Below are positions 37,950 to 45,605 of a stretch of 64,000 bases of DNA, one piece after another. The translations under genes were made by a program, and so were the position numbers. Origin of the DNA: Seleniivibrio sp. (GTDB lineage: Bacteria; Chrysiogenota; Deferribacteres; Deferribacterales; Geovibrionaceae). The notes below the pieces were generated by a model that saw only the letters and a list, made by a program, of their open reading frames with translations, did not search any database and was not told the DNA's origin. The stretch's first letter is position 1. Every line of letters starts with the position of its first letter. The stretch spans positions 1-64,000 of the forward strand of contig NZ_JAJOIL010000008.1 of NCBI RefSeq assembly GCF_021209385.1, written 5' to 3'.

Positions 37950-38126
37950 TTGGAAAGGATAAACTGCCGTAAATGCATACATTTTTATGTGACATGGGAT
38001 AAACAGTTTCCCTACGGATGTAGGGCGCTGGGGTTTAAAACCCAGACGATGCCGTCTGTTCGGGTGTTTCAGACATCGGGAATGGACTGTTTGCAGTTCA
38101 AAGAGAAGAAATTCAATAAAGAATAA
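37950..38126 (+). CDS. Small cysteine-containing protein, 58 residues
   Basis: A short gene starting at TTG 37950 with GGGAGG five bases upstream. The translation contains INCRKCIHFYVTWD, YGCRALGFKTQTMPS and SGMDCLQFKEKK, with four Cys arranged as CxxC, C, C, suggesting a small metal-binding or iron-sulfur protein. I recall similar short proteins with this CRKCxHFxVTWD...GCRxxGFK pattern in other anaerobes, without assigned function. It is divergent from the oligopeptidase (58-base shared promoter region), and its 3' end overlaps the convergent Crp/Fnr gene by 14 bases. Confidence 0.75.
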   Translation: MERINCRKCIHFYVTWDKQFPYGCRALGFKTQTMPSVRVFQTSGMDCLQFKEKKFNKE

Positions 38127-38778
38127 CGGGTTCCTTGACCAGCATGCTGTCGTCTTTGACTTTTATGGCGCCTTCCAGAGAGAGTATCTTGAGGCATTTC
38201 GTCACAGATTCCCTTGATGCGCCTATCATGTTTGAAAGCTCCTGATGGGTGTACTTTCTGATGGTGTAAAATCCGTTCACCGGATCCTGTTCGTCTTTAA
38301 CGCTGTCCAGCAGAAACTTCATTATACGTTCCTTAACATTCAGAAACGCCAGTGATTCTATGAGTTCGTCGGCTTTTCTTAAGCGTTCGGTAAGAGTTTC
38401 CAGAAGATAGAGCGTTACGTTGAAATCTTTTTGCAGAAGCTCGTTAAGGGCTTTTCTGGGGATGAGAACGATTTCTGAAAGTTCGTCAGCGATGAGTGTT
38501 CCGGTGCGTCCAAGCCCGTCTATCATGCTCATTTCGCCCACAACACCGCAGGGGAAAATCACCGAAAGGATGATTTCATCTCCGTTGCCGTCAACAAGCA
38601 CGACGCGGAAACTGCCGGATATCACCACATAAAGGTCTGTTCCTACGTCACCTTTGTGGAACACAACTTCGTCTTTTGCGAACTTTTTTATTTTGCAGAA
38701 GCTTGCCAGCCTCTCAAGGTCGTTTTTTTCAGTGGTTTCAAAAATTGCCGCTTTAGCGATCTGTTCAGCAAGATTCAC
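38113..38778 (-). CDS. Crp/Fnr-family transcriptional regulator
   Basis: 221 residues. The cyclic-nucleotide-binding-like beta-barrel covers about residues 12-130 (VVFHKGDVGTDLYVVISGSFRV, GVVGEMSMIDGLGRTGT). A long dimer helix follows, then a winged helix with recognition segment LSNMIGASRESVTKCLKIL near 180-200. The N-terminus has no four-Cys cluster, so it is not an oxygen-sensing FNR of the classical type. The GVVGEMSMIDGLGRTG block is close to the cAMP-pocket pattern. It starts at GTG 38778 after GGAGG. A Crp/Fnr-type half-symmetric site lies just upstream. Confidence 0.92.
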   Translation of the reverse strand: MNLAEQIAKAAIFETTEKNDLERLASFCKIKKFAKDEVVFHKGDVGTDLYVVISGSFRVVLVDGNGDEIILSVIFPCGVVGEMSMIDGLGRTGTLIADELSEIVLIPRKALNELLQKDFNVTLYLLETLTERLRKADELIESLAFLNVKERIMKFLLDSVKDEQDPVNGFYTIRKYTHQELSNMIGASRESVTKCLKILSLEGAIKVKDDSMLVKEPVILY

Positions 38779-39894: not shown

Positions 39895-41318
39895 TTCAGT
39901 TTTTCCAGTTCGGAAGTTATTATTGCCATTATTTTTTCAAGCTCCGCTTTATTGACCGCCTCGTAGCGTGTAACAAGCAGAGGCTCCGTGTTGCTTGCCC
40001 GCACCAGCGCCCAGCCCTTTTCAAACTGCACCCTGATACCGTCTATATCCGTTATGCTTTTTGTACCGTAAGTACCGTTTTTCAGGTATTCTCCGAAGAC
40101 TTCGGCAAGTTTTTCAATCAGCGCGAATTTCTTATCGTCAGGATAGGCTTCCCGTATCTCCGGCGTGTTGACATATTCCGGTATCTCCGCCGTCATATCC
40201 GCCGAATTGCGGAATCTGCCGCTTTTAAGCCCGTTCACATATGCCCGTAAAAGCCTCAGAGAGGCGTATATCCCGTCGTCAAATCCGAAATAGCCGTCGG
40301 AGAAGAAGAAGTGTGAACTCATCTCCCCGCCTATGACCGCGCCTACCTCTTTCATTTTCATTTTTATCATGGAATGACCCGATTTGTACATAACGGGTTC
40401 CATCCCTTTCGCCGCTATGAACTCGTAAAGTCCCTGTCCGGCTTTAACGTCCGCGACTATCTTACGCCCTCTGTTTTCGGCTGCTATGTCGTCTGCGAAG
40501 ATACAGAGCAGTTCGTCTCCCCATATCATTTCGCCGTTACAGTTGAGCGCGCCGAGCCTGTCGGAATCGCCGTCGTAACTTACGCACAGATCAGCTTTTT
40601 CTTTCAGCAGAAGTGCTTTTGCTTCTGCCAGATTTTTTTCTACAGTAGGGTCGGGGTGGTGTCCGGGAAAACTGCCGTCCTCCGTGCAGTAAAGCGGAAG
40701 CACTTTAACACCCAAATATTCAAAGAGCCGGGGAGCGATTGTGGATGCCGTGCCGCTTCCGCAGTCTATGACAACCTTTATCTCCCTGCCAAGTTTTTCT
40801 ATGTCCCTTTTCAATACTGCAAAAGATTCCTGAATATATCCGATGTATGCTGTTTTTATGTCAAAATGAGTTTTTTTGCCCTGTCTGTCAGGGTTAGGAA
40901 AATTGCCTGCCGCGATGTCTTCATAGATGCGCATTATCTTTTCCGAGTGGTATACGGTGTTCTTCGTTCCGACCTTTAATCCGTTGAACTGCGGCGGGTT
41001 GTGGCTGCCTGTCACCATAACGTAGCCATCCGCAGGAGTGCAGTACATTGAGAAATAGGTGAGTGGTGAAGGGCAGATTCCAAGCATTTGGACATCTGCT
41101 CCGCCTTCTTTCAGCCCGAGACAAACGGCGTTTGCCAGAGATTCGGATGAAAATCTGACATCTCTGCCTACTGAAATAAGCGGGTGATTTTTACCCGTCT
41201 CCTGACGCGTATGTTCCGCAAACACCCGTGCGGCGCTTCTGGCAACAGAATCCGTTAATTTCTCTCCGTAAATTCCCCGTATATCATAGCTTCTGAAAAT
41301 TTCTTTAATCTGTAACAT
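39891..41318 (-). CDS. Phosphomannomutase/phosphoglucomutase
   Basis: Alpha-D-phosphohexomutase interconverting sugar 1- and 6-phosphates for cell-surface polysaccharides. The start is ATG 41318 (MLQIKEIFRSYDIRGIYG) with AGGT five bases upstream; 18 earlier codons of the open frame look non-coding. In the 475 residues the catalytic phosphoserine is in MVTGSHNPPQFNGLK near 103. The metal loop is YDGDSDRLGALN near 248. The sugar-binding loop is GGEMSSHFFF. The phosphate-binding C-terminus is VRASNTEPLLVTRYEA. This is the AlgC/ManB type. Its start region overlaps the -35 of the divergent HATPase gene. Confidence 0.95.
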   Translation of the reverse strand: MLQIKEIFRSYDIRGIYGEKLTDSVARSAARVFAEHTRQETGKNHPLISVGRDVRFSSESLANAVCLGLKEGGADVQMLGICPSPLTYFSMYCTPADGYVMVTGSHNPPQFNGLKVGTKNTVYHSEKIMRIYEDIAAGNFPNPDRQGKKTHFDIKTAYIGYIQESFAVLKRDIEKLGREIKVVIDCGSGTASTIAPRLFEYLGVKVLPLYCTEDGSFPGHHPDPTVEKNLAEAKALLLKEKADLCVSYDGDSDRLGALNCNGEMIWGDELLCIFADDIAAENRGRKIVADVKAGQGLYEFIAAKGMEPVMYKSGHSMIKMKMKEVGAVIGGEMSSHFFFSDGYFGFDDGIYASLRLLRAYVNGLKSGRFRNSADMTAEIPEYVNTPEIREAYPDDKKFALIEKLAEVFGEYLKNGTYGTKSITDIDGIRVQFEKGWALVRASNTEPLLVTRYEAVNKAELEKIMAIITSELEKLK

Positions 41319-41320
41319 TA

Positions 41321-41350
41321 TTGACCTGCGGAAAATCTTTGTGGTATAAT
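41321..41350 (+). promoter_or_regulatory. Consensus-like sigma70 promoter of the HATPase gene (leaderless)
   Basis: TTGACC (41321-41326) and TATAAT (41345-41350) are spaced by 18 bases. Transcription should start 6-8 bases after the -10, at 41356-41358, which coincides with the ATG at 41357. No ribosome site is present. The -35 lies only three bases from the divergent phosphohexomutase start. Confidence 0.75.
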
Positions 41351-41356
41351 CTACAC

Positions 41357-42169
41357 ATGAAAAAAATAGCATGTTTTATTAATGATAGCAACCTCTTGGA
41401 GAGAGTTAAGGAATTTTGCGCATTGGAAAGGTTTCAGGACGAGATAATCTGCGACCCTTCCCAGTTTGTCTATGACGTTGCAACAGTGCTTTATATCACA
41501 GATGATTCCGAAGCTCTCGCACCGGATGGTATTAAAGATATAAAAGTATGCTATGTCGGAGAGGAAAGACCGAAAGATGCGAAAATGTTCTTTATGCCTT
41601 CGGATTTTAAATTCATCCATATGCGTCTTCTGGTGGATGCGGTTATCCACAACGGATGTTTTGAACCCAGCATCGCTTCCGTTCTGCCGGAATTTCTGCA
41701 TCAGTCTTTCAGGATAAAGAACGACATTTTTAACGTTGAGCGCATAGTTTATGCTCTTACAAAGGACTTTGTGTATTTCCTTAATTTTCAGTCGCTTGAA
41801 AAGGTGCGGGTGGGGCTTGCGGAGATGCTTACAAACGCCATCGAGCATGGCAATCTCGGCATCACGGGCGAAGAGAAGATGCATGCCACAGAGAACGGTA
41901 CCTATTACGACCTTGTCAGCACCAGAATGAACGATTTCTACTACATGTCCAGACATGCCACTTTCACATATTATGTTGACGCGCTGGGATTGAAAATGAG
42001 CCTTGAGGACGAAGGCGAAGGATTCAACGTTAACAGCCTTCCTGACCCCACAGATCCAGAAAGCCTGTTGAAACTCCACGGGCGCGGGATACTCATCACC
42101 AGAATGTACTTTGACGAAGTGAAATATAACGACAAAGGGAATCTTGTTTCCCTTTCAAAGAGGTTCTGA
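41357..42169 (+). CDS. HATPase-domain signalling protein with receiver-like N-terminus
   Basis: 270 residues. The first ~110 residues look like a degenerate response-regulator-type alpha/beta domain (MKKIACFINDSNLLERV, DVATVLYITDD, IKVCYVGEERPKDAKMFFMP). The rest is a GHKL ATPase of the anti-sigma/RsbW type, with N-box VGLAEMLTNAIEHGN near 153-167, then SLEDEGEGFNVNSLPDP and LHGRGILITRMYFDEV. There is no phosphoacceptor His domain, so it should phosphorylate a protein partner or bind a sigma factor rather than act as a classical kinase. The start has no ribosome site and matches a leaderless transcript. It overlaps the metallo-beta-lactamase gene by one base. Confidence 0.82.
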   Translation: MKKIACFINDSNLLERVKEFCALERFQDEIICDPSQFVYDVATVLYITDDSEALAPDGIKDIKVCYVGEERPKDAKMFFMPSDFKFIHMRLLVDAVIHNGCFEPSIASVLPEFLHQSFRIKNDIFNVERIVYALTKDFVYFLNFQSLEKVRVGLAEMLTNAIEHGNLGITGEEKMHATENGTYYDLVSTRMNDFYYMSRHATFTYYVDALGLKMSLEDEGEGFNVNSLPDPTDPESLLKLHGRGILITRMYFDEVKYNDKGNLVSLSKRF

Positions 42170-42978
42170 TGCTCTATCTTCTCGGCACCAGAGGCACACT
42201 GCCTGTTTCAGGACAGAAGTTCGTGAAATACGGGGGAAATACCACCTGTCTCATGGCTCCGGTGGACGAGAAGACCTGTCTGATATTTGATGGCGGCACA
42301 GGAATCATGAGCCTTAATAAATACGATAATTTCGAGGAATTTCACATATTCCTGTCACATCTGCATTGGGATCATATTGTTGGTGTTCCAATCTTTCAGG
42401 CATTTTATAACTCCAAAAAAAAGATTAACATCTATCTTGAGAATAAAGAGACATTGCACTCCACTGATATTCTGGATGTGCTGTTCAATCCGCCTTTTTT
42501 TCCGGTTCCGAAGTCAAAACTGAGAGCCGATATAAAGCTGAACCTCATTGAAGGGGGCGACCAGTTCAAATTCGGCAATATTCAGGTTCATTCAGCAGAC
42601 GGCAACCATCCCGACGGTGCGCTTATGTATAAGATAGTGTTTCCATCTAAGAGTATACTTTATACATCAGACTATGAACACGGAACGACTGTAGACGATT
42701 TTCTCATAGAGTTCGCGTACGGCTGTGATTATATGATTTACGATACAACCTACTTTCCGGAAGAGTATGCAGGTGTAAACGGGCAGTCCGGTAAGGTCGG
42801 CTGGGGACATTCAACATATCTTCAGGGTATCGAGTTTGCCAAGAAAGCTAACGTGAAAAATCTGGTCATGGCGCACCATAATCCTGATTACGACGATATT
42901 ATGCTGGACGAAATGCAGATATTGGCGAGACGATTGTTTCCGAATTCGGTAGCCGCTTACGACGGCATGATCCTCTGA
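42169..42978 (+). CDS. Metallo-beta-lactamase fold hydrolase, phosphodiesterase-like
   Basis: 269 residues. The N-terminal LLGTRGTLPVSGQKFVKYGG and the metal motif HLHWDH at residues 64-69 identify the MBL fold. Later ligands include His in DGNHPDGAL, Asp in YTSDYEHG, and His in MAHHNPDYDD. It resembles the RNase Z/cyclic-nucleotide phosphodiesterase branch more than glyoxalases or lactamases, so a phosphodiester substrate is likely. The one-base overlap with the HATPase gene ties the two together in one signalling unit. Confidence 0.85.
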   Translation: MLYLLGTRGTLPVSGQKFVKYGGNTTCLMAPVDEKTCLIFDGGTGIMSLNKYDNFEEFHIFLSHLHWDHIVGVPIFQAFYNSKKKINIYLENKETLHSTDILDVLFNPPFFPVPKSKLRADIKLNLIEGGDQFKFGNIQVHSADGNHPDGALMYKIVFPSKSILYTSDYEHGTTVDDFLIEFAYGCDYMIYDTTYFPEEYAGVNGQSGKVGWGHSTYLQGIEFAKKANVKNLVMAHHNPDYDDIMLDEMQILARRLFPNSVAAYDGMIL

Positions 42979-42980
42979 AA

Positions 42981-43102
42981 TTGCTGTTGATATGCTTCGC
43001 ATAACCGCGTCAGTTTACTTTCACTCGCAACACATACTCCGTATGTATGCTTTTGCTCGTTTTAAGTAAGCCTTCCTTGTTCTGCTCGCATCTGAACAGC
43101 AA
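42981..43102. repeat. Intergenic palindromic repeat, copy 4
   Basis: Ends TTGCTGTTGATATGC and GCATCTGAACAGCAA; left block GCATAACCGCGTCAG; right block CTTCCTTGTTCTGCTCGCAT. The middle arms GTTTACTT and AAGTAAGC are specific to this copy and still pair. The centre is ACATACTCCGTATGTATGC. It begins directly after the MBL gene stop codon and is followed three bases later by copy 5. Confidence 0.83.
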
Positions 43103-43105
43103 TTA

Positions 43106-43224
43106 TTGCCTTTTATAACACTTCGCATTTCTTCGTTGTCCTCAGAAAAATCTGCCTCACATACTCTTTGTATGCTCGTTGATTTTTCATCGTCCGCCTT
43201 GAACTGCTCGGTTCTAAAAAGCAA
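43106..43224. repeat. Intergenic palindromic repeat, copy 5 (tandem with copy 4)
   Basis: The most diverged copy: ends TTGCCTTTTATAACAC and GTTCTAAAAAGCAA. The middle arms GAAAAATC and GATTTTTC pair, and the centre CTCACATACTCTTTGTATGCTCG keeps the family core. It lies downstream of the convergent small membrane protein gene. Confidence 0.72.
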
Positions 43225-43262
43225 TTAAGTGTAACATTTCCTTTAAGTTTCTATTTTTTTCC

Positions 43263-43757
43263 TCATTTCTTTTTCCATGGCTTAAATACTGAAACGTAAA
43301 TAGTGAATATTATTATCCCATTCTGAATCGAACCGAATATCAGGTTCATTCTCTGATTATAGAGGTAAGCGGGGTCGGAAAGGGCAGCTAATCCCATGTT
43401 ACCTGAAATATGCAACATATTCTTTTCCCAAACACCGAGGTAAAAAGTTCCGAAAAGGATGGCCGAGATGGTGACAACCCATTTGAAAGTCAGCCAGCGA
43501 TGTTTGAAGAAGCCCCAGTTGGTGAACATGGAATAGATAAAACCTGTTATCAGACAGCCTATAGCTCCGAAAATAACTACTATATAGCTGTCAATAAAAT
43601 GAAGGCTTCTGTTTATGCCGTAAAGCTCGCCTCCGTCAGTAACCCCCTGTTTCATGAAATACATAAGGCACATTGTGAATCCGCCGACAGCCCAGCATGC
43701 CGCTGTAAAAATATGTATCGTTTTTAAAGCTTTTTGTCCGTTTGTGCTGAGTTTCAT
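43263..43757 (-). CDS. Four-helix membrane protein under MarR control
   Basis: 164 residues with four predicted membrane helices at about residues 10-32 (IHIFTAACWAVGGFTMCLMY), 55-76 (YIVVIFGAIGCLITGFIY), 87-107 and 138-158. The arrangement resembles DUF2269-like small integral membrane proteins; no enzyme motif is visible. It is divergent from the MarR gene across a gap holding two palindromic operators, so it is very probably the regulated target. It may handle stress or membrane redox, but this cannot be decided. Confidence 0.82.
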   Translation of the reverse strand: MKLSTNGQKALKTIHIFTAACWAVGGFTMCLMYFMKQGVTDGGELYGINRSLHFIDSYIVVIFGAIGCLITGFIYSMFTNWGFFKHRWLTFKWVVTISAILFGTFYLGVWEKNMLHISGNMGLAALSDPAYLYNQRMNLIFGSIQNGIIIFTIYVSVFKPWKKK

Positions 43758-43779
43758 TTTTTATCCTCTTATTGGCAAT

Positions 43780-43814
43780 TGACAATATATTGTCATAATG
43801 ACATTATACTGTCA
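43780..43814. promoter_or_regulatory. Twin MarR operators
   Basis: A perfect 16-bp palindrome TGACAATATATTGTCA (43780-43795) and a near copy TGACATTATACTGTCA (43799-43814) are centred 19 bases apart, in the 78-base gap between the MarR gene and its divergent membrane-protein gene. The arms TGACA/TGTCA are shared. Their spacing would place two dimers on nearly the same DNA face. Confidence 0.8.
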
Positions 43815-43835
43815 ATTAAAAATTGAGGTGAAAGA

Positions 43836-44279
43836 GTGGAGCATACGGAAGCCGGATTAAAATACACCGACTTGATATTGGCGGTTTTCAGACTGAACGG
43901 ACAGCTTGTGCTTGAGGGTGACAGGCTCGCAAAAGAGGACGGGCTTACCAGTGCGAAATGGCATGTTATGGGTGCGCTGATATATTTCGGCGAGCAGAAT
44001 ATCACCGTTTCCCGCATCGCTTCCAGAATGGGATTGAGAAGGCAGGGGGTTCAGAGAATCGTCAATGAGTTATGCGAAATGGGGCTGGTTGTCTTTAAGG
44101 ATAACCCCTACCATAAAAAGGCAAAGCAGATCGTTCCCACAGAAGAAGGTTTAAAAAGATTTAATTCTGTTATGCAAAAGCAGATTCCTTGGGCAAACGA
44201 ACACGGCGGAAGTTTGGGGTCAGACGAGCTTGAAACCGCTCTCAGAGTGATAAGAACGATTTCCGCCAGATTGCCTTAA
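43836..44279 (+). CDS. MarR-family transcriptional regulator
   Basis: 147 residues starting at GTG 43836 with GAGGTG five bases upstream. Winged helix-turn-helix: SAKWHVMGALIYF, then ITVSRIASRMGLRRQGVQRIVNELCEMGLV (about residues 52-85) and wing VVFKDNPYHKKAKQIVPTEEG. Terminal helices provide the dimer interface. MarR dimers usually repress their own and a divergent gene until a small phenolic or oxidant binds, and both features fit the paired operators next to it. Confidence 0.93.
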   Translation: MEHTEAGLKYTDLILAVFRLNGQLVLEGDRLAKEDGLTSAKWHVMGALIYFGEQNITVSRIASRMGLRRQGVQRIVNELCEMGLVVFKDNPYHKKAKQIVPTEEGLKRFNSVMQKQIPWANEHGGSLGSDELETALRVIRTISARLP

Positions 44280-45466
44280 TTGCTTACTATCCTGTTACGC
44301 CCTGACTGTTTAGCAGTATAAAGCCTTTCGTCGGCAAGTTTGATGGCTGATTCCGCAGTGTCATCAGGCTTGAACTGGGCGATACCGAAGCTTGCCGTTA
44401 CGTTGAAAGAGCAGTCTTTCAGACTGAAATTCGTAGCTTCAAGTTTCTTGCGTATCATCTCAGAAACGTGGGTGGCGTTTCTTGCGTCCGCGTTTACAAG
44501 CAATATCATAAACTCCTCTCCGCCGTAGCGGAAAGCGAAGTCTGTTCTTCTTATGTTCTCTTTAATAAGCTGCGACATATGCTTAAGCACCTGATCGCCC
44601 ACCTGATGTCCGTAAGTGTCGTTGATTGATTTGAATTTATCAATGTCCGCCATTACAATGCTGAAAGGGGTTCCCATTCTTTTGAATCGCTCTATCTCTT
44701 CTGTCAGCTTCATATCCATATATTTACGGTTGTAAAGCCCTGTCATGTGATCCTGTATTGACTCGTTTTTATACCTGTTCAGGTCGGACTGGAGCTGATT
44801 AACCTGATTTTTGTACTGTTCCAGTTCATTGTTAACGTTTGAATACTCTGTTGCGATTGTTCCGAGATGATCTCTTTTTGTGGTTGTTTTCTGGTCAAAG
44901 GTGTTGACGAATGACGAGAAAGAATCCAGCATTTTGGATTTAAGGTATTCAATTGAATCTTCGCTTTTAAGGATTCTGTGCATATCCTGTGCTTCGTTAA
45001 GAAGCTTTTTGTCCATGGCGAGGTCTTTTTCAACAAATTCGATATTATGACCGAGACTGCTTGTAAGGTCGGCCTGCAAATTTACGAATTTTGAGAAAAC
45101 ATCATCTATGAAGGCGCTGAATTTGTGCTGGCGTTTTTCGAGCGAGAGCAGGTGGTCGGAAACCGTGCGCAAAAGGGCATCCATGGTTTCATCATGGGTT
45201 CTTTTCGGGTCGAAAACCATGTCTTCGACAGTTTTAAGTCCCTGATCTGAAACAAAGCCGCGCAGAGGGGTGACGTATTTTAAAACGTCGGATTTGTCTC
45301 CACCGGTCATGACTGTATGAACCAGATTTCTGAATTCATTGCTTTCCGACAGGTAATTTGAAATACTTGAGGATGATACTTTTGATTTTTCCGTAGCCAT
45401 TTTTTTCAGAACAGCTGTCACAATTTGCCCTAATTGAGACGCTATATAAGCCGATTTGTCCGCCAT
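44276..45466 (-). CDS. Diguanylate cyclase (GGDEF)
   Basis: 396 residues from ATG 45466, preceded by GGCGGAG. A long helical N-terminal region of about 220 residues has no recognised sensor and ends in a coiled coil (EYSNVNNELEQYKNQVNQL). The GGDEF domain follows, with DHMTGLYNRKYMD, active site RYGGEEFMILL near 314-318 and the inhibitory I-site RRTD upstream, so product feedback is expected. It makes cyclic di-GMP. There are no membrane helices, so it is cytoplasmic. The 3' end overlaps the MarR gene by four bases. Confidence 0.94.
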   Translation of the reverse strand: MADKSAYIASQLGQIVTAVLKKMATEKSKVSSSSISNYLSESNEFRNLVHTVMTGGDKSDVLKYVTPLRGFVSDQGLKTVEDMVFDPKRTHDETMDALLRTVSDHLLSLEKRQHKFSAFIDDVFSKFVNLQADLTSSLGHNIEFVEKDLAMDKKLLNEAQDMHRILKSEDSIEYLKSKMLDSFSSFVNTFDQKTTTKRDHLGTIATEYSNVNNELEQYKNQVNQLQSDLNRYKNESIQDHMTGLYNRKYMDMKLTEEIERFKRMGTPFSIVMADIDKFKSINDTYGHQVGDQVLKHMSQLIKENIRRTDFAFRYGGEEFMILLVNADARNATHVSEMIRKKLEATNFSLKDCSFNVTASFGIAQFKPDDTAESAIKLADERLYTAKQSGRNRIVSN

Positions 45467-45605
45467 TTCTCCGCCCTTATAATTCGTTTTTTGTATTATT
45501 TGACAAAACCGACAGTGATGCAACTACAAAATTATGTAATTTTTAACTATATTGCTCACATGTTTCTCTGCTTGATTTTTCATATGTAAAAGGGCAAAGT
45601 ATCTG

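Follow-up and report, generated by a model that had tools for sequence, protein, structure and literature searches.

Two overlapping genes in a Seleniivibrio sp. contig raise the question of why an ATPase of anti-sigma type, predicted to be made from a leaderless mRNA, should be encoded together with a phosphodiesterase of the metallo-beta-lactamase (MBL) fold. The pair lies in a stretch of 64,000 nucleotides, referred to here as the window, from an organism whose genus also includes a Seleniivibrio woodruffii MAG (order Deferribacterales); its features are listed in Table 1. We favor the view, with a probability of roughly two in three, that the pair is a conserved two-gene signalling operon of the Deferribacterales, which co-expresses a partner-switching component and an off-switch for cAMP. 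Computation established the order and overlap of the genes, the conservation of the -10 box, the domains with their motifs intact, and the pattern of co-distribution; we infer from these that transcription starts at A41357, as well as what the enzymes act on, which partners are bound and whether there is crosstalk.

Table 1. Positions of the features of the two-gene locus, numbered from the first letter of the window.
Feature	Position	Strand	Basis
Promoter	41321..41350	+	TTGACC 41321-41326, 18-nt spacer, extended -10 TGG-TATAAT 41342-41350
Gene 1, degenerate-receiver/Bergerat (HATPase_c_2) protein, 270 aa, LvrC-like, predicted leaderless	41357..42169	+	profile match, orthologues, model
N-terminal pseudo-receiver, residues 1-97	41357..41647	+	AlphaFold2 and profile alignment
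D49 codon	41501-41503	+	invariant; phospho-acceptor column
Bergerat-fold domain, residues 113-270	41693..42166	+	invariant motifs
Gene 2 Shine-Dalgarno site (GAGGT 42160-42164) and one-base TGATG stop/start overlap	42160..42171	+	sequence
Gene 2, MBL-fold phosphodiesterase of atypical class-II type, 269 aa	42169..42978	+	PF12706, motifs, model
S63-HLHWDH motif of gene 2	42355-42375	+	HxHxDH invariant in orthologues

The initial annotation had proposed that a near-consensus promoter, TTGACC-18-TATAAT, places the transcription start on the ATG of gene 1 with no ribosome site, and both the promoter and the missing ribosome site held up. The promoter scored 11/12 and was the best promoter-like site within positions 40000-44500, where 14 such sites were found against 7.0 ± 2.4 expected in shuffles. 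Its -10 box ends at 41350, 6 nt ahead of the ATG at 41357, so that transcription is predicted to start at 41357 or at most 1 nt away, and no Shine-Dalgarno (SD) site was found before this ATG. A divergent phosphomannomutase-type gene with a probable start at ATG 41318 lies upstream, and the promoter is contained in the 38-nt gap between the two genes. We aligned 33 gene 1 orthologues at gaps of 0 to 49 before the start codon and scored a -10 box as a match of at least 5/6 to TATAAT, with A2 and T6 required. Such a box was present at gap 6 in 20 of the 33 starts and at any other gap in 0-3; it was usually extended (TGn) and was retained down to ~36% protein identity, usually without an SD site. 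Most of the other orthologues, including those of families f5 and f6, had a weaker or shifted box (gap 5-9), and most f4 members lacked the gap-6 box. In f4, gene 1 comes after CheX-like and M16-peptidase-like genes, which were identified by eye (L033, L042, L043 and L044). The -35 hexamer was conserved only in the host genus and the sister genus g4. At the sequence level, gene 1 thus has a -10 box that places the start at the AUG and has no SD site, and it appears to be leaderless through most of the Deferribacterales, although promoter matches alone do not prove a transcription start.

We also compared this arrangement with ~670 ORFs of the host genome and its relative G007, using simple start calling of limited power, and found no excess of TATAAT at gaps 5-7 (6.7 versus 6.6 and 6.3 versus 5.7 per gap). 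Widespread leaderless usage was therefore unsupported in these two genomes, and we regard the start of gene 1 as a conserved exception, since the two genomes sampled have no general excess of such starts. A published survey assigns an ordinary anti-SD to the Deferribacteres (PMC10783764). As in other leaderless (TA-led) bacterial genes, the -10 box directly precedes the start codon and an SD is absent (PMC3160421, PMC12340547); in contrast, here one gene holds the box across most of an order, while such starts are in no general excess in the two genomes sampled. A 216-aa ORF (L210, - strand) and a 389-aa ORF (L199, - strand) likewise have TATAAT at gap 6 ahead of a start that lacks an SD, and may also be leaderless genes.

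The combination of receiver-like and ATPase domains in the gene 1 protein, which had been recognized at the outset, was borne out. PF13581 (HATPase_c_2) matched residues 142-268 with 62.7 bits against a cut-off of 27.4, and the receiver-like fold of residues 1-97, which has no Pfam basis, was recognized by AlphaFold2 modelling and by aligning profiles. In the predicted structure (AlphaFold2, mean pLDDT 91), the N-terminus forms an alpha/beta domain whose strands are ordered as in a receiver but which has few of the receiver helices; a SpoIIAB/RsbW-like domain follows. The Bergerat motifs were invariant (N box E156/N160/E163/H164, DxGxG 218-222 and GRG 242-244), and ATP binding is therefore expected; the ATP-binding boxes and the N-box catalytic Glu of the RsbW/SpoIIAB type are intact. 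In the N-terminal domain, D49 was invariant in 33/33 orthologues and was placed in the phospho-acceptor column by the profile alignment, but the positions of the receiver acidic pair and Lys were not conserved and a canonical phospho-receiver pocket was not found. Because the Asp is kept while the acidic pair and the Lys are unconserved, we regard the protein as a variant of a known architecture in which a pseudo-receiver takes the place of the receiver.

That architecture is represented by LvrC of Leptospira (PDB 9qih), the best full-length Foldseek match of the gene 1 model. LvrC is described as a receiver-Bergerat response regulator that has been proposed as an anti-sigma factor and whose canonical receiver is phosphorylated by LvrB at D53 (PMC13269768). 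Both proteins have an N-terminal receiver, a Bergerat anti-sigma-like domain and a common HATPase sequence (E 4e-24), and gene 1 has the layout of the LvrC type, namely a receiver-like N-terminus and HATPase_c_2 in ~270-310 aa. A comparison of gene 1 with canonical relatives by hhalign gave 100% probability over 265 columns. Unlike in LvrC, the receiver pocket and Lys of gene 1 have degenerated, which leaves the Asp alone invariant, and the passages of the LvrC account considered here mention neither an MBL partner nor a leaderless start (PMC13269768). The Bergerat fold and the intact N, DxGxG and GRG motifs are common to gene 1, SpoIIAB and RsbW; however, gene 1 has the pseudo-receiver in addition, contains a helical insertion behind its N box, has no adjoining STAS or sigma gene, and scored far under the cut-off of the RsbW equivalog NF003144 (14.7 versus 145 bits). 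The protein is thus best described as a LvrC-type derivative that may work like LvrC, and not as a canonical member.

The initial annotation knew of no described system of this composition, a statement that needs to be narrowed. The part types are known: the union of a receiver with an RsbW-type ATPase has already been described for LvrC (PMC13269768), and ~300-aa relatives with canonical receivers were found in Riflebacteria, Desulfobacterales, Bacteroidales, Chlorobiota, Spirochaetes and others. For the whole, no description was found in the open-access literature, and as far as found there, neither the combination nor an order-wide leaderless start has been reported. In the outgroup f10 (L174, L175 and L176), the receiver-HATPase gene adjoins a CheW-like gene; the protein has ~304-317 aa in L175 and L176, and that of L175 has Glu in the phospho-Asp column. 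A Denitrovibrio MAG (G011, L008) has one in-frame TGA in gene 1, which points either to a gene that recently became a pseudogene or to a fault in the assembly.

The one-base overlap with an MBL gene was also confirmed, with the gene 1 TGA at 42167-42169 and the gene 2 ATG at 42169-42171 having one base in common, and this layout makes translational coupling of gene 2 to gene 1 probable. The gene 2 protein matched PF12706 at 50 bits, and HxHxDH, H147, D168, HST214-216 and HH236-237 were invariant in 21 MBL orthologues. It carries both the fold and the [T/S]HxHxDH signature of the atypical class-II phosphodiesterases Rv1339, YhfI and CpdA (PMC9293780). The model (pLDDT 87) matched RNase Z, YhfI and PhnP in fold, and YhfI was among the top matches (6kns/6knt, TM 0.69-0.79). 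Gene 2 shares with Rv1339, YhfI and CpdA the PF12706 fold, the signature, the metal-ligand residues and the YhfI-like structure (PMC9293780), but stands apart as a subfamily of its own, marked by conserved FFPV and GWGHST motifs and tied to an anti-sigma-like gene, and it scored 38.2 bits against a cut-off of 400 for the cyclic nucleotide-degrading phosphodiesterase equivalog NF041851. In cell extracts, Rv1339 hydrolyses cAMP, cGMP and 2',3'-cCMP and does not hydrolyse c-di-AMP or c-di-GMP (PMC9293780). A link to phage counter-defence of the Apyc1 type was considered and dropped, as only one weak, partial phage match was found.

We surveyed 46 Deferribacterales genomes and found gene 1 in 44 of them, as well as in 40/40 relatives; the two genomes that lack it have a completeness of 57% and 86%. 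An MBL orthologue was present in 22 of the 44 and lay directly downstream of gene 1 in all 22, overlapping or nearly so, in five families at 36-90% protein identity and with varying upstream neighbors. The pair is therefore genuine and conserved, but it is not obligate: 22 further genomes (f4, f5, f6 and part of f3) kept the HATPase gene but have no MBL orthologue, and in f9, a family of another order of the class, two genomes have the MBL gene without gene 1. Because gene 1 persists without the MBL gene, we regard the two as co-expressed parts of two pathways. Gene losses separate the two genes, so that gene 1 most likely has its place in partner switching and gene 2 in the turnover of cAMP. 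The f9 lineage, a single one with small genomes, lacks gene 1, all STAS proteins and all SpoIIE proteins together, in line with gene 1 being on the partner-switching side. The suggested search for a STAS or sigma partner beside the pair returned neither; STAS and SpoIIE-type phosphatase genes are present in nearly all surveyed genomes, at places that do not adjoin gene 1. At one such place (L184:4603-6508, - strand), a SpoIIE-type phosphatase adjoins a STAS protein that bears the motif NSSG, near chemotaxis-like genes. Pairs of this type are widespread and have no kinase of their own nearby, which makes them candidate partners of gene 1.

The presence of the MBL gene followed that of a CHASE2-class III cyclase (PF00211) in 48 genomes of the class Deferribacteria. 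The cyclase was found in 25 genomes, including 24/24 MBL-positive ones, and the 23/23 cyclase-negative genomes had no MBL orthologue. The families with gene 1 alone accordingly had neither, except for G021, the one cyclase-positive genome without an MBL orthologue. In G021, the cluster L163:4512-11874 encodes FecR-like and TPR-like proteins, an MBL-GAF-HD-GYP fusion and the CHASE2 cyclase, and so links domains of the cAMP and c-di-GMP types; the MBL domain is related to that of gene 2, but is fused to GAF and HD-GYP and does not stand beside gene 1. Within genus g6, G027 has both cyclase and MBL and G013 and G020 have neither, and in Calditerrivibrio the cyclase lies two genes upstream of the pair. 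The cyclase has Lys and Thr at the base-recognition positions, which is typical of bacterial adenylyl cyclases. STAS, SpoIIE and PF00027 did not show an MBL-like presence pattern in the class, although PF00027 counts were higher in cyclase-positive genomes (mean 6.6 versus 2.6).

This match has to be read with its phylogeny. The Fisher p of 1.6e-12 ignores relatedness; on the gene 1 tree, the MBL trait needs three changes, each common to the cyclase, and with only three independent switches the match is not significant alone. The losses fall partly in small genomes, and since G013 and G020 also lost other signalling genes (SpoIIE down to one), their co-loss of cyclase and MBL may belong to a wider loss. 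Additionally, among 27 genomes of other phyla, which are not independent of each other, 13/15 MBL-positive genomes had 13-75 cyclases and 11/12 MBL-negative genomes had 0-3 (Mann-Whitney p 4e-5; per Mb p 1.4e-4). The f9 genomes count against a role in cAMP signalling, as they keep cyclase and MBL but have no PF00027 receptor. Because the MBL gene tracks the cyclase across the class, cAMP is the most likely substrate of gene 2, as judged from distribution and motifs. The nucleotide messenger of the initial annotation is thereby supported and narrowed, with cyclic mononucleotides, cAMP above all, being likelier than dinucleotides; a cyclic-dinucleotide substrate was not favored, since the co-distributed enzyme is a class III mononucleotide cyclase. 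A CRP-family regulator with a cNMP-binding domain (PF00027) is encoded in the window at 38113-38778 (- strand); its orthologue is confined to f1, and it found no support beyond f1 as a co-inherited receptor. In L166, L168 and L185, LPP20/FecR/CsgG-like envelope genes (by eye) neighbor the CHASE2 cyclase in some places and an RsbV-like STAS gene in others.

Other explanations differ in how far they depart from this picture. It is quite conceivable that the genes are mere co-transcribed neighbors, a LvrC-like regulator and an unrelated MBL phosphodiesterase sharing a promoter without joint function. This would explain why each gene occurs alone in the families named above and why ~50 LvrC-like loci from other phyla, many of them covered with as much as 10 kb of flanking DNA, had no MBL gene nearby; on the other hand, all 22 co-occurrences are immediate and are maintained in five diverged families despite changing upstream neighbors. 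In the opposite direction, the operon could be a real junction of partner switching and cAMP, whose proteins regulate one another or act on a common target and whose leaderless start, retained at the depth of an order, ties output to the state of the ribosome, with 70S initiation favored under stress; we consider this rather unlikely.

Two further alternatives concern single genes. RNase Z was the best match of the MBL protein in both sequence and fold, and PhnP-family enzymes also match in fold, so that an RNA-processing RNase Z-like enzyme or a PhnP-like phosphodiesterase might be expected in place of a cyclic nucleotide phosphodiesterase. We judge this improbable. The score of 67 bits is far below the TIGR02651 cut-off of 293, nearly all 40 genomes, MBL-negative ones among them, have a separate, higher-scoring RNase Z-like gene of 326-344 aa, and co-distribution with a cyclase is unexpected for tRNA processing; identity with the housekeeping RNase Z was rejected for gene 2. 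Even less probable is a normal leader for gene 1, with its promoter farther upstream in the divergent phosphomannomutase gene or its true start codon downstream. Sequence alone leaves room for shorter starts, but the orthologues align from residue 1 onward, consistent with ATG 41357 as the start codon, the only + strand promoter-like site within 40000-42850 sits at this ATG, and the gap-6 box is held across families whose remaining upstream DNA is dissimilar.

Under the favored reading of a two-gene signalling operon, transcription from the TGn-TATAAT promoter would start on the AUG, and protein 1 would be made from leaderless mRNA and protein 2 via its own SD and the stop/start overlap. Protein 1 would be a LvrC-type switch, in which a Bergerat domain with the SpoIIAB/RsbW fold binds ATP and is fused to a pseudo-receiver keeping only the Asp, and it would probably phosphorylate a STAS antagonist and/or hold a sigma factor; these targets are guesses, because the operon contains no partner. 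Protein 2 would be a cyclic-nucleotide phosphodiesterase with a binuclear metal site, degrading the cAMP supplied by the co-inherited cyclase. One promoter would thereby put partner switching and cAMP turnover under joint expression. The locus offers a predicted cyclase/phosphodiesterase pair for cAMP signalling in a little-studied lineage, which is directly testable, and a natural case of one gene apparently leaderless through most of an order whose sampled genomes make no wide use of such starts, from which the purpose of leaderless initiation could be studied. With it, the recently described LvrC family of receiver-anti-sigma proteins gains members whose receiver is degenerate. A third signalling gene, encoding a GGDEF protein, was observed close downstream of the pair in the window (44276-45523, - strand), and its position is conserved in f1.
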